From Phycisphaera sp. (GTDB lineage Bacteria; Planctomycetota; Phycisphaerae; Phycisphaerales; SM1A02), in NCBI GenBank assembly GCA_016124975.1, contig WGMP01000009.1, forward strand, positions 62,001-126,000: a stretch of 64,000 nucleotides of DNA. Direction: 5' to 3'. The notes below the pieces were generated by a model that worked only from the letters and a program-made list of their open reading frames with translations, was not told where the DNA came from and did not search any database. Positions 30,865 to 45,777 of the stretch are shown in pieces (position 1 is the first letter of the stretch; each line of letters opens with the position of its first letter). The translations under genes and the position numbers were made by a program.

Positions 30865-32763
30865 TCAGTAGAGCACGCGGAAGCGGACCGTGCCCGGGAC
30901 CGAGCGAAGCTCGTCGATCGCGGCGTCGTCGTAGGTCTTGTTGACGTCCGTGACGACGTAGCCGACCGCCTCGTCTGTGCGCAGCGACTGCCCGAGGATG
31001 TTGATCTTGCGCCGCGCGAGGATCGAGTTGATCTCGGCGAGGACGCCGGGCTGGTTTCGATGCAGATGCAGGAAGCGGTGCGCGCGCGGCGTGGGCGGCA
31101 GCGCGATGTTCGGGAGGTTCACGCTGCCCGCCGTGGCGCCCGCGTTCACATGCTCGATGAGGCGGTTCGCCACGAAGGCGCCGATTCCCTGCTGCGCCTC
31201 GCCCGTCGAGCCACCGATGTGGGCGGTGAGGATCACGTTCGGGATCCCGCGCAGCGGCGTGTCGAACGCCTCCTTGTTCGAGTTCGGCTCTGCGGGGAAC
31301 ACATCGACCGCGGCGCCCGCGAGGTGGCCCGCCTTCAGGCTCGCGGCGAGCGCGTCGAGGTCGACGATGTGGCCGCGCGCGAGGTTCAGGAGATAGGCCC
31401 CCTGCTTCATCTTGCGCAGCTCGCGCTCGCCGATGAGATGCGTGTTCTCGCGGCGCCCGTCGACATGAAGGCTCACGACATCGGCCTTCGCGAGGAGCTC
31501 GCCGAGGCTCTTCGCGCGGCGCGCGTTCCCGAGCGGCATGACCTCGGCGGTGTCGTGGTAGACGACATGCATGCCCATCGCCTCCGCGAGTACAGAGAGC
31601 TGCGAGCCGATGTGGCCGTATCCGACGATGCCGAGCGTCTTTCCGCGGATCTCGCTGCAGCCCTGCGCGCTCTTGCGCCAGCCGCCCCCGTGGAGAACGC
31701 GGTCGCTCTCGACCACGCGGCGCATGAGCATGACGATCTCTCCGATCGCAAGCTCGACCACGCTGCGGGTGTTCGAATAGGGCGCGTTGAAGACGGCCAC
31801 GCCGCGCGCGGCCGCGGCCCCGAGGTCGACCTGCTCGGTGCCGATGCAGAAGCAGCCGATCGCAAGCAGCCGGTCGGCCGAGTCGAGCGCCGCGGCGGTC
31901 GCGCGCGTCTTCGAGCGGATGCCGAGGAGCGACACGCCCTTCAGCGCGCGCCTCAGTTCCGCCTCGGGAAGCGCGTCGGAGAGCGCCTCGACCTTGTAGC
32001 CCTCGTCGCGCAGCATGTCCGCGGCGTCGGCGTGGATGTTCTCGAGGAGAAGCGCGACCATGCGCGACTTCGGAAAGCTCGGGGCCCCCGGCAGCGCGTA
32101 GATCCAGAGCAGTTCATCGACGCTGCGCACCACGCGGTCCGCGCGCGCGATGACGTTCTCGCGGGCGATGTTCTCGCAGTAGGCGACGAACTCGTGCGCC
32201 GCGCCCGCGTCGCGGATCTCGCAGTCGGTGGCGCCGTCGCCGACCGCGATGACGGTGCCCGCGAGCTTGAGGGCGCGCACCGCCGAGGGCTTTCCCTTCG
32301 GCCGCGCGAGCGGAGAGTCCGTGTCGTATCCGATGACGGTCTTTCCGTCCTTCGACCAGTGCAGCTCGTTCGCGACGACATGGTCGGCGGGAATCCCGAG
32401 CTCCGCGCACACGGGAACGACATAGTCGCGGAAGCCCGAGCTGACGACATAGATGTGCGCGGCGTTGCGGCGGATCGCGGCCTTGTGGCGACGGAAGCTC
32501 GGAGCGAGCTTCTTGCGCAGGAGCTTGATCACCGCATCGACATGGGCGCGGGTGATGGCGAGTTGCGAGAGTCGGCGACGGAGCGACTCGTCGATCCCGA
32601 TGCGGCCCTCCATCCCGTCTCGCGTGATGCCCTCGATGGCGAGGACCTTGGCGTCGCGGTCTGGGTCGTCCGCGAGCGCGAGGCGCGCGATCTCGTCGAG
32701 ACCCTCCACCGACACGATGGTCGAGTCGAAGTCGAGGATGAGGGTCGTTGCAGACGCGGCCAT
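30865..32763 (-). CDS. Bifunctional phosphoserine phosphatase / D-3-phosphoglycerate dehydrogenase fusion
   Basis: 632 residues. Residues 1-220 are a HAD phosphoserine-phosphatase-like domain: DFDST (Asp11, Asp13), VVSSGF (about 107-111) and VGDGATD (174-180). Residues 231-632 are a SerA-type dehydrogenase: Rossmann motif GIVGYGHIG, NLARGHIVD (catalytic Arg), FPAEP (catalytic Glu), TAHIGGST (catalytic His) and a C-terminal ACT domain (about 555-632, HRNQPGVLAEINSILARRKI). One chain would thus catalyse the first and last steps of serine synthesis from 3-phosphoglycerate; the SerC step is not encoded nearby. The ACT domain suggests serine feedback. TATCTT lies 6 nt before the ATG. The phosphatase specificity is inferred. 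Confidence 0.88.
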   Translation of the reverse strand: MAASATTLILDFDSTIVSVEGLDEIARLALADDPDRDAKVLAIEGITRDGMEGRIGIDESLRRRLSQLAITRAHVDAVIKLLRKKLAPSFRRHKAAIRRNAAHIYVVSSGFRDYVVPVCAELGIPADHVVANELHWSKDGKTVIGYDTDSPLARPKGKPSAVRALKLAGTVIAVGDGATDCEIRDAGAAHEFVAYCENIARENVIARADRVVRSVDELLWIYALPGAPSFPKSRMVALLLENIHADAADMLRDEGYKVEALSDALPEAELRRALKGVSLLGIRSKTRATAAALDSADRLLAIGCFCIGTEQVDLGAAAARGVAVFNAPYSNTRSVVELAIGEIVMLMRRVVESDRVLHGGGWRKSAQGCSEIRGKTLGIVGYGHIGSQLSVLAEAMGMHVVYHDTAEVMPLGNARRAKSLGELLAKADVVSLHVDGRRENTHLIGERELRKMKQGAYLLNLARGHIVDLDALAASLKAGHLAGAAVDVFPAEPNSNKEAFDTPLRGIPNVILTAHIGGSTGEAQQGIGAFVANRLIEHVNAGATAGSVNLPNIALPPTPRAHRFLHLHRNQPGVLAEINSILARRKINILGQSLRTDEAVGYVVTDVNKTYDDAAIDELRSVPGTVRFRVLY

Positions 32764-32775: not shown

Positions 32776-32914
32776 TCGGCGCTCCGAGCGCGCGGGATGA
32801 GGGATTTACGCGGCAGAAGCGCGCGCGAGTTGAGCGGTCGCCGCCGCGGCGGCTTCCTTTGGCGTGGATGACGCGTGTCGGAGTCCCCACACTTGATCGT
32901 CGTGTCGGACGATT

Positions 32915-33047
32915 CACGCGTCGGAGTCCCCAAGCCAGGGGTGTCCGCATGCTTCAGCATGCGGAACGACAACCGTCGGAGTCGACGGATGGCGTCATCC
33001 GTTCCGCGGACTGAAGTCCACGGGCACCCCTGATTGTCGTGTCGCAC
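32915..33047. repeat. Long hairpin repeat, copy A
   Basis: About 133 bp from CACGCGTCGG to GTCGCAC. The third hairpin is GGAC-TGAA-GTCC with an imperfect outer extension (one C/A mismatch). About 90% identical to copy B by eye. Confidence 0.75.
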
Positions 33048-33183
33048 GATTCAGATCGTCGGAGTCCCCACACATGATCGTCGTGTCGGACGATTCAGAT
33101 CGTCGGAGTCCCCACACTTGATTGTCGTGTCGCACGATTCAGATCGTCGGAGTCCCCACACTTGATCGTCGTGTCGGACGATC

Positions 33184-33314
33184 CACGCGTCGGAGTCCCC
33201 AGCCGGGGGTGCCCGCATGCTTCAGCATGCGGAACGACACGCGTCGGAGTCGACGGATGGCGTCATCCGTTCCTTGGACTTCGTCCAAGGGCACCCGTGA
33301 TTGTCGTGTCGCAC
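33184..33314. repeat. Long hairpin repeat, copy B
   Basis: About 131 bp, same ends as copy A. The third hairpin is CCTTGGAC-TTC-GTCCAAGG, a perfect 8-bp stem. It ends 15 bp from the DUF1501 stop, so it may serve as that gene's 3' structure. Confidence 0.75.
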
Positions 33315-33329
33315 GCCTTCGCGTCTCCG

Positions 33330-34856
33330 TCACGCCATGATCCCGCGCACCAGCTCGCCCTTCACGTCGGTGAGGCGGTAGTCGCGGCCCTGCGCGCGAT
33401 AGACGAGCTTCTTGTGGTCGAGACCGAGAAGATGCAGCATGGTCGCATGGAGGTCGTGCACCTCGACGGGCTTGTCGACGATGTTGTAGGAGTACTCGTC
33501 GGTCTCGCCGTAGGTGATGCCCGGCTTGATGCCGCCGCCCGCGAGCCACACGGAGAAGGCGCGCGGGTGATGGTCGCGGCCGTAGTTGTCGCGCGAGAGC
33601 TGCCCCTGCGAGTAGACCGTGCGGCCGAACTCGCCGCCCCAGAGGACGAGGGTCTCGTCGAGCAGTCCGCGGCGCTTGAGGTCCTTCACGAGCGCGGCCT
33701 GCGCCTGGTCGACCGCCTTCGCCTGCGCGCTGAGCTCGCCGGGGAGATTGCCGTGCTGGTCCCATCCGCGCATGTAGAGCTGGATGAAGCGCACATCCCT
33801 CTCAGCGAGGCGTCGGGCGAGCAGGCAGTTCGCCGCGAAGGAGCCTGGCTTGTGGACATCGGGGCCGTACATCTCGAGCGTGGCGGGATCCTCGTCGGAG
33901 AAATCGGTGAGCTCGGGCACCGACATCTGCATGCGGTAGGCCATCTCGTGCTGCGCGAGGCGCGCACGCACCTCGGGGTCGAGGCTCTCCGTGAACTCCG
34001 TCTCGTTCAGCTCGCCGACGAGATCGAGCATGCGGCGGCGGTCCTCGCGCGTGACGCCGTCAGGGTCGCGGAGGTAGAGGACAGGGTCGCGCCCCGAGCG
34101 GAGGCGACAGCCCTGGTGTTCGCTCGGAAGGAACCCGCTGCCCCAGAAGCGCGCGCTCAGGGCCTGCATGTTGCCGACGCCCTGCGTGATCATCACGACG
34201 AACGCGGGCAGGTTCGCGTTCATGCTGCCGAGGCCATAGCTCATCCACGAGCCGAAGCTCGGGCGGCCCGGCTGCTCGGAGCCCGTCTGGAAGAAGGTGA
34301 TGCCGGGCTCGTGGTTGATCGCCTGCGTGTGCATCGAGCGGATCAGGCACATCTCCTTGGCGATCCCGCCCGTATGGGGCAGGAGCTCGGAGAGATGGAC
34401 GCCGTCCTCGTTGTTCTCGTAGCGGTCGAAGCGGAACTTCGAGGGCGCCACGGGGAGGCGGTCCTGGCCGCTTGTCATCGTGGTGATGCGCTGGCCCTTG
34501 CGGATCGAGTCGGGGAGGTCCTCGTTGAAGCGCGCGGCGAGCCCGGGCTTGTAGTCGTAGAGGTCGAGCTGGCTGGGTGCCCCCTCCATGTGCATGTAGA
34601 TCACGCGCTTCGCCTTCGGGGCGAAGTGCGGCGCAGGCGACCCGCCCGCGAGGGGCGCGGCGGGAAGGCCGTTCGGAGCGAGGATCGTGGCGCCCGAGGC
34701 CTGCTGCGTGCCGAAGAGCGACGCGAGCGCGGCGCCTCCGAGGCCCGCCCCGATCGAGCCCGCCATCGCGCCGAAGAAGCGGCGGCGGGTCATGTTGAGG
34801 AGGTACTCCTCGAGTCCGTCCGCGGGCGTCGCGCTGATCCTCGGTTGCTTCGACAT
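33330..34856 (-). CDS. DUF1501 domain protein (second locus)
   Basis: 508 residues with a long twin-arginine-type leader ([20 protein letters not shown], about 22-41) and DUF1501 motifs: [89 protein letters not shown] and [18 protein letters not shown]. It lies 74 nt downstream of the DUF1549/1553 partner and is surely in its operon. The start is the ATG at 34856 (MSKQPRIS); a start at the later MTRRRFF would give a shorter leader. The partner order (DUF1549/1553 first) is the same as at 942-4600. Confidence 0.9.
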
Positions 34857-45200: not shown

Positions 45201-45466
45201 CCCGCCGCGCCAAAGCCGCCATTCCGGCCCGCCTCACACGACGCCTCGCACGACGCCACGCACGATGCCTCGCACGACACCTCGCACAACACCTCACACA
45301 GCGCATCCGAGATCGCACGCCGCGCGTCGAGCACGCGCACGCGAGCCGCAGCGGGCGACGCCTGCGTTGAGGTTGACTCACCGCTGCCGTCGATCGATCG
45401 TTCCGTGGCTTGTTTCGTGGATTGTTTCGTGGCTTGGTCCTTGGCTTGGTCCTTGGCTCGTTCCAT
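42248..45466 (-). CDS. addB: AddB-like nuclease/helicase subunit with N-terminal 12-bp repeat arrays
   Basis: 1072 residues from the ATG at 45466. An AddB-like helicase-dead N-terminal half (VRVLDARRAISDALCEVL, MVLVPGGRLASALSRGLL, PMIVTPKRF, ELFVMAPDDETRRAIE) leads to a C-terminal PD-(D/E)XK nuclease: FIECPYLFQL, NLVHAALEQWG, GRIDRV, LDYKSSS and the Gln motif LQLPLYRVL. It pairs with AddA (4-nt overlap). The N-terminus is unusual: 13 tetrapeptide repeats (RLGK to QATE types) and, after VRVLDARRAISDAL, six Cys-Glu-x-x repeats. The frame stays open to an ATG at 45709, so translation may start there and include the whole array; a TATACT box lies at 45778-45783. The start is therefore uncertain. 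Confidence 0.8.
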   Translation of the reverse strand: MERAKDQAKDQATKQSTKQATERSIDGSGESTSTQASPAAARVRVLDARRAISDALCEVLCEVSCEASCVASCEASCEAGRNGGFGAAGSSQDERADRGPLDLSRTMVLVPGGRLASALSRGLLARARAESRPLFAPMIVTPKRFGPNLVEPVRPILGEMAAMFSWREVLDRSVAVGDGFAVRVASLFGVAAEPDAAARMRIARRVHRLSSEVAASMWALDEIVSSAAAREIVRARSELAGRLEVLAEFARRRAALLDECGVADRDESLREAVRADAGRVERRTAGGVVADGIDRVVVLFADPDPVQRALLRRLREHGVCVEVCVHGADDVDEDGFPIAARWESRAFPTDRIAHAAIRVADRPNGAAEDVVAAIRALPVGPDGPRRPTSDELFVMAPDDETRRAIERALALAGTPAASGEARPFGATRLGTLLARLAELLGEGSAESLAAFVRHDDVACWLARSKEIPDAADRVSAYRAKTFVGAWRDEPVGSVEGGGWRGEAVASGYAAVRGAVIALCGPLSGSKPVSAWARPLREALRAVVGDDSRGSFAGERVGSVRQLDRALAELAEIPKEFAAPVSCDEAIALLLEQAARQEIRGTVEVDGVTVAGWLDAGMADEPHIVLSGFADGVVPSGGAGDSLFPDELRIALGMPSSRRHAARDAWILDGILTRTAARASSGRGASVGFVVARQTEEGDPLKPSRFLLRVEEAALAERVTQLFASDAGDERPSAVADAAAALIFVKTPPVSGTVIEAVSVTGFKSFIECPYLFQLRHDPRLRLDDLDERAVELDARGFGNLVHAALEQWGREEAAAANPTDDAEAIERSVCAHLDALVAMHFPKSRAPALRIQIELARRRLRRFAEIQSEEAKQGWKVHHAELAFTKDAKPGEIQSPRLPANDGLFLTGRIDRVDLHLPSGRFRALDYKSSSSADPPLKTHVHGGKRKKSTNAIEWKDLQLPLYRVLLRSMPKPIMVGSADLGYFNLAPSAEKSEIAMLGPAVVTDADLDAAEALAVELVGRIQRGEFKPNDRVPVRDGDAFAPIWGRGQRGLGDAGGGDGPSAGDASEGGGE
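45231..45302 (-). repeat. Six 12-bp units encoding Cys-Glu-x-x tetrapeptides in AddB
   Basis: Contiguous 12-bp units from 45231 to 45302 around GCCTCGCACGAC. On the minus strand they encode CEVx/CEAx/CVAx, placing cysteines four residues apart in an AddB N-terminal loop. Confidence 0.75.
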
Positions 45467-45556
45467 CAATCGTCCCCTCAATCGTCCCCTCAATCGTTCC
45501 CCCAGTCGCTTCCCCAGTCGCTTCCCCAGTCGCTTCCCCAGTCGCTTCCCCAGTCG
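45401..45556 (-). repeat. Thirteen-unit degenerate 12-bp array at the AddB N-terminus
   Basis: Units run 45401-45412 to 45545-45556, drifting from TTCCGTGGCTTG through GTCCTTGGCTTG and TCCCCTCAATCG to CTTCCCCAGTCG. The downstream-most copies (45509-45556) are identical. Each encodes a basic or acidic tetrapeptide (RLGK, RLRG, QAKD, QATK and similar). The candidate start ATG at 45466 lies inside unit 6. Confidence 0.8.
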
Positions 45557-45777
45557 CTCCACGCCTCCCGCCTCTCTTCCCTTCTTCGAGCCGGCGACCG
45601 GCCTCCTGCGAGCTCCGCGTCCGGCCCGCGCGCCGCACGAGGCCGTCAGCCCTCGCCGAAACTCGCCTGATCGGTGAATGCGGCCACACCGAATGCAACC
45701 ACACCGCACGCGCGATCCCGCTCATGCGCGTTCCGTTCCCTGTTGCACAGCCATTCGCAGCCCCTCGAAGAGAGCGC

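Follow-up and report, generated by a model that had tools for sequence, protein, structure and literature searches.

A tandem REPIN array in a Phycisphaera genome belongs to a dispersed REP family with covarying stems, unlike arms and a putative RAYT partner

The closest known system to the repeat island described here is REPIN/RAYT (PMC3116915; PMC8266576; PMC3733652); its kind is a known one. In Pseudomonas fluorescens SBW25, REPINs occur with RAYTs (PMC3116915), and they resemble the elements described here: both are doublets of oppositely oriented REPs, conserved at the ends and in spacer length, which fold as clovers or long hairpins, carry compensatory changes, and form tandem clusters together with flanking sequence, including a cluster beside a RAYT gene. 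The BIME-2 and GTAG-3 REPs of E. coli, which occur with TnpAREP (PMC8266576; PMC3733652), alternate in opposite orientations, form arrays at the 3′ ends of genes and make dimers between unlike REPs only, as is also true here. The GTAG and CGTC superfamilies of REPs (PMC3733652) share with the present family their short palindromes, opposite dimers, intergenic location, bias toward 3′ ends, alternative complementary stem types and preference for heterodimers, and GTAG REPs have been reported in the PVC group (PMC3733652).

The differences are equally specific. The feet are GTGCC and GAACG here, whereas those of SBW25 REPINs are GTAG; unlike in SBW25, about ten stem types occur in one genome, the two arms of a unit are never identical, and most islands are tandem arrays. 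In contrast to BIME-2 and GTAG-3 REPs, the REPs have neither GTAG nor a mid-stem bulge, but perfect 8-bp stems closed by TTCA or GAA loops. A search directly 5′ of the stem found no GTAG tag, nor its variants GYAG, GTRG or GTMG, the feet being GGTGCC and GAACG, and the window REP family does not show the CGTC tag with A-T first stem pairs by which the CGTC superfamily is recognised.

The window, by which we mean the whole stretch of 64,000 nucleotides analysed (Phycisphaera sp., contig WGMP01000009.1), contains one island of this family. A sequence-only reading had described three contiguous 44-bp units and a separate fourth one, interleaved with two copies of about 132 bp that each hold three hairpins. 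The island is real, and all of these parts are present. Each "132-bp copy" is a REPIN, that is, two oppositely oriented REP hairpins 31 nt apart, with a spacer that holds small hairpins of its own, and the 44-bp units are tandem duplicates of the linker that normally parts successive REPINs. The features, in order, are these.

30865..32763, minus strand: left neighbour, a 632-aa fusion of HAD phosphatase, phosphoglycerate dehydrogenase and ACT, start codon towards the island
32831..32854, plus strand: second palindrome (TGAGCGGTCGCCGC-C-GCGGCGGCT), a distinct repeat flanking many islands
32867-33314: the island as first delimited, four REP hairpins in two pairs with tandem linker units
32881..32939, plus strand: linker copy (the separate 44-bp unit), left of REPIN 1
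32940..32968, plus strand: REP 1, forward, stem type A (GCATGCTTCAGCATGC), foot mutated to GTGTC instead of GTGCC
32969..32999, no strand: spacer of REPIN 1, 31 nt, structured
33000..33028, minus strand: REP 2, reverse, stem type B (TGGACTTCAGTCCG, read on the reverse strand)
33031..33201, plus strand: 44-bp units in tandem, 3.9 copies; duplicates of the linker that parts REPIN 1 from REPIN 2, on the basis of genome-wide linker lengths
33208..33236, plus strand: REP 3, forward, stem type A
33237..33267, no strand: spacer of REPIN 2, 31 nt, structured
33268..33295, minus strand: REP 4, reverse, stem type F (CTTGGACGAAGTCCAAG)
33296..33315, plus strand: right linker, truncated; end of the island
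33330..34688, minus strand: right neighbour, a DUF1501 protein, stop codon towards the island

The long copies (32940-33028 and 33208-33295) are 92% identical over 84 nt and also have a conserved tail in common. Tandem-repeat analysis of the window gives 91% matches across the 44-bp array, with three full units at 33031-33162 and a fourth that runs on into REPIN 2. The third hairpins are as the earlier reading gave them, CCGCGGACTGAAGTCCACGG with one C/A mismatch in copy A and CCTTGGACTTCGTCCAAGG in copy B; the mismatch, which lies on the plus strand of REP 2, is a G-T wobble on the reverse strand. REP 1 had been missed by the foot-pattern search and was spotted by eye. The left neighbour combines two serine-synthesis steps in a single polypeptide, its phosphatase part being SerB-like. 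Elsewhere in the window, at 45230-45626, several different 12-bp tandem repeats lie side by side, one of them with 4.9 perfect copies.

The left boundary of the island should be moved to about 32831, taking in the further palindrome, which is a repeat separate from the REPIN family and genus-wide. It occurs at 168 sites in this genome (G000) and in all 16 genus members, with dozens of copies in most, whereas the family's other genera have no copy. The element (TGAGCGGTCGCNGCTGCGGCN'GCT) often starts with the TGA stop codon of a gene and has a T/C-rich tail, and the two bases of its central pair change together (C-G, G-C, A-T, T-A); it is possibly a gene-end hairpin or terminator.

Searched against the 3.6-Mb genome with BLASTN, the island gave 115 matches. 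About 195 REPs in 50 islands were fetched and parsed, the window island being one of roughly 50. A REP spans about 29 nt and reads GGTGCC-stem-loop-stem-GAACG, and the order within the 50 islands is nearly uniform: forward REP, 31 nt, reverse REP, 48 (+44n) nt, forward REP. The spacer is 31 nt in almost all of the 70 REPINs, while linkers measure 48, 92, 136 or 179 nt, a basic length of 48 extended in steps of about 44; the tandem periods are 137 bp (REPIN and linker) and 44 bp (linker alone). The exact foot-only pattern occurs at 193 genome sites, against 0 for a reversed control pattern. These are short palindromes present in tens to hundreds of copies and extragenic, with islands overlapping none of the genes called by a simple codon-based caller. 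Of 118 contig ends, at least 31 lie inside REPIN arrays, so the figures for copy number and array length are underestimates. Absence from other places was one of two outcomes that the sequence-only reading had named as counting against it, the other being arm changes no more compensatory than random (see the stem comparison below); instead, the element matches across the genome, and REPINs are found in congeners of the genus too. Among the named genomes, the foot pattern with the TTCA loop was found in only two related MAGs, other scattered single matches being at about chance level.

Folded as single-stranded DNA, copy B reaches -32.8 kcal/mol against -18.0 in shuffles (z = -5.8), and its fold is a clover in which the feet are paired and both REPs stand out as side arms. 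The structure of the island is therefore not a matter of chance, given this z score and the 115 genome matches. More generally, the REPIN feet are complementary (GGGTGCC/GGCACCC) and close the unit, so that one strand can fold as a clover-leaf; with their spacer of fixed length, the opposite doublets are able to form either a clover or one larger hairpin. A stable fold is also what the earlier suggestion of a structured RNA made at this one locus would call for, but we regard that suggestion as very improbable. No promoter-like site was found at the island, the same element is present at about 50 unrelated sites, and the island is absent from this site in congeners: in a same-site comparison of four of them (G007, G008, G013 and G015), both flanking genes are close neighbours and the island is missing. 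An Rfam scan of the window gave no match at gathering score. At the window site the intergenic flanks are too diverged among congeners to define a target-site duplication, and at the RAYT1 locus (see below) and at island C2 the congener assemblies split the two flanks between contigs, which leaves no clean empty site. We think it very likely that the island consists of REPINs arrayed in tandem and belonging to a dispersed family of miniature, nonautonomous elements, probably mobilised by a RAYT and amplified in tandem.

About ten stem types recur in the family, with few exceptions as near-perfect palindromes whose loop is TTCA or GAA. An alignment of 43 distinct REP sequences, drawn from this genome and its congeners, has 95.9% of its stem cells paired (77% in shuffles), a covariation score of 0.554 (0.188 in shuffles) and two-sided changes in 62 cells (15 when shuffled), and 7 of the 8 stem pairs covary; when partner columns are slid by one to three positions, pairing falls to 26-38%. 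The feet in this alignment (A1) are conserved partly by construction, the extraction pattern having required them, whereas the stem was no selection criterion within the pattern; unpaired matches outside islands were left out. Comparison of all copies by covariance thus strongly supports structure-preserving variation across the family. The earlier reading of the difference between copies A and B as compensatory mutations in one hairpin does not hold, however: the copies carry the standing types B and F, and the loop differs too. They are two of about ten pre-existing stem types, and not one mutated lineage.

Templated correction can produce two-sided changes in the absence of selection. A tandem repeat spread by recombination, its palindromes maintained as perfect ones during replication by quasipalindrome-templated correction with neither transposase nor selection, would account for the 137-bp and 44-bp periods and for stems that change as whole palindromes. 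We nevertheless consider a passive satellite of this kind distinctly unlikely, since some 50 dispersed sites with unrelated flanks require a dispersal mechanism, the unpaired feet are conserved, the 31-nt spacer is fixed, and a REP-associated transposase has the same REPs adjacent to it. Under the mobile-element reading, stems would turn over as entire palindromes because pairing is required.

The arrays are not placed evenly with respect to genes. Gene sides that face an island are 3′ ends in 59 of 69 cases and 5′ ends in 10, and among the 19 fully flanked islands 12 lie between convergent genes and none between divergent ones. Together with stable RNA folds on the antisense strand, this distribution is in keeping with a transcription boundary adopted by the host, the arrays being kept as hairpins that terminate transcription or protect mRNA 3′ ends where neighbouring genes converge or run in one direction, with mobility secondary or extinct. 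We judge this possible but on the whole unlikely. The same bias would follow if insertions near promoters were harmful, no T-tract intrinsic terminator was found at the REPs themselves, and congeners that share the gene order lack the window island. Moreover, each REPIN contains both orientations, yet G-T wobbles sit almost exclusively on the REP strand. On the GGTGCC strand there are 14 G-T wobbles against 2 A-C cells among distinct sequences, and 61 against 0 among genome copies, part of this coming from one type (B) that is present in many copies. Such an asymmetry is expected if the GGTGCC strand is the strand that folds. With both REP orientations in each REPIN, RNA made from either side would not yield it, while strand-specific recognition of single-stranded DNA would. 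Recognition of single-stranded DNA by a RAYT, or correction templated by the palindrome, is a more likely source of the constraint than an RNA specific to this locus.

The genome encodes three RAYT-like genes, two of which reach Pfam Y1_Tnp, the third having been found with RAYT1 as query. RAYT1 (P0001; G000:C15:38529-39065, intact) scores 89.3 bits against NF047646, the NCBIfam REP-associated tyrosine transposase (cut-off 80), and retains HVH as well as the Y of VRYIHLNPVRAGL; like TnpAREP of E. coli, it is a Y1 transposase of the same family, and it aligns to the solved TnpArep 4er8 (E 0.004), though as only a weak match in sequence. An array of three family REPs begins 124 nt upstream of the RAYT1 ATG, which places the same REPs beside a RAYT gene in one case and on one side only; by our own rough estimate, chance would give this adjacency with a probability of 0.4-9%, depending on counting, which is not negligible. 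The statement that the window island sits alone, with no transposase, is correct for its neighbourhood but not for the genome, which encodes a matching RAYT beside another array. REPs of this type lie beside one of the three RAYT-like genes; the second and third have none adjacent, and some have other palindromes. None of the congener RAYTs checked is flanked by this REP type, other palindromes or none lying beside them, and in G003 and G008 (both about 82% complete) there are REPs with the same feet and no close RAYT1 homologue was found.

The 3′ side of the acs-regulator gene pair is a repeated landing site: in G000:C15 (L068 2914-4204) it holds RAYT1 and REPs, in G004:C94 a different RAYT in opposite orientation, and in G003:C76 REPs with no RAYT. 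Other RAYT-like genes of the genus (L139, L140, L138; G004, G002, G006) lie near palindromes of their own (TGGCATCACCTCTGGTGATGGC type), which suggests that the genus holds several RAYT-REP pairs.

We propose that a RAYT-type Y1 transposase, encoded beside one array and presumably RAYT1, recognises the REP hairpin, GTGCC foot included, as single-stranded DNA. REPINs would thereby be copied or moved into intergenic DNA, and their retention mostly at gene 3′ ends may reflect the places of least harm. Recombination or slippage could then multiply the REPIN with its linker, giving the 137-bp period, or the linker alone, giving the 44-bp one.

The arms of a REPIN are never alike. Identical stem types on both arms occur in none of the 70 REPINs, with 12 expected by shuffling, and across the linker in none of the 66 neighbour pairs, with 11 expected; when one REPIN is kept per island the count is 0 of 44 (8.9 expected). 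REPIN copies are related, so that the effective sample is smaller, and at the level of the 17 observed pair types our own estimate of chance is about 0.01. By DNA energies, a single long hairpin beats the clover by about 16 kcal/mol on average when the arms are identical, and the clover is preferred by 3 kcal/mol on average when they are unlike. In congener G006 the arms differ in the outermost pair only, and the rule may be weaker there. A model with two stem classes, like Y and Z in E. coli, was rejected; A, B and C are each found paired with both of the others.

When two facing REPs share a stem type, they may be lost, or fail to be mobilised, through collapse into the long hairpin. As a tentative and rather doubtful extension, we speculate that REPINs are self-incompatible, viable or mobile only with unlike arms, the transposase needing the two hairpins of the clover and identical arms locking into one long hairpin.

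The preference of REPs for heterodimers was reported in 2013 with "no obvious explanation" (PMC3733652) and is in itself already known; what is added here is a planctomycete, RAYT-linked REP family with a non-GTAG foot. Unlike stems on facing hairpins may help to explain that preference, and one genome with about ten stem types, 70 two-armed units, no identical pairs, and conserved feet and spacer is a clean data set for the purpose. The two causes proposed, cleavage of hairpins by an SbcCD-like nuclease and a transposase that needs two hairpins, differ in testable predictions. If self-incompatibility is real, many stem types would stay in circulation, much like a balanced polymorphism of DNA structure within one genome.
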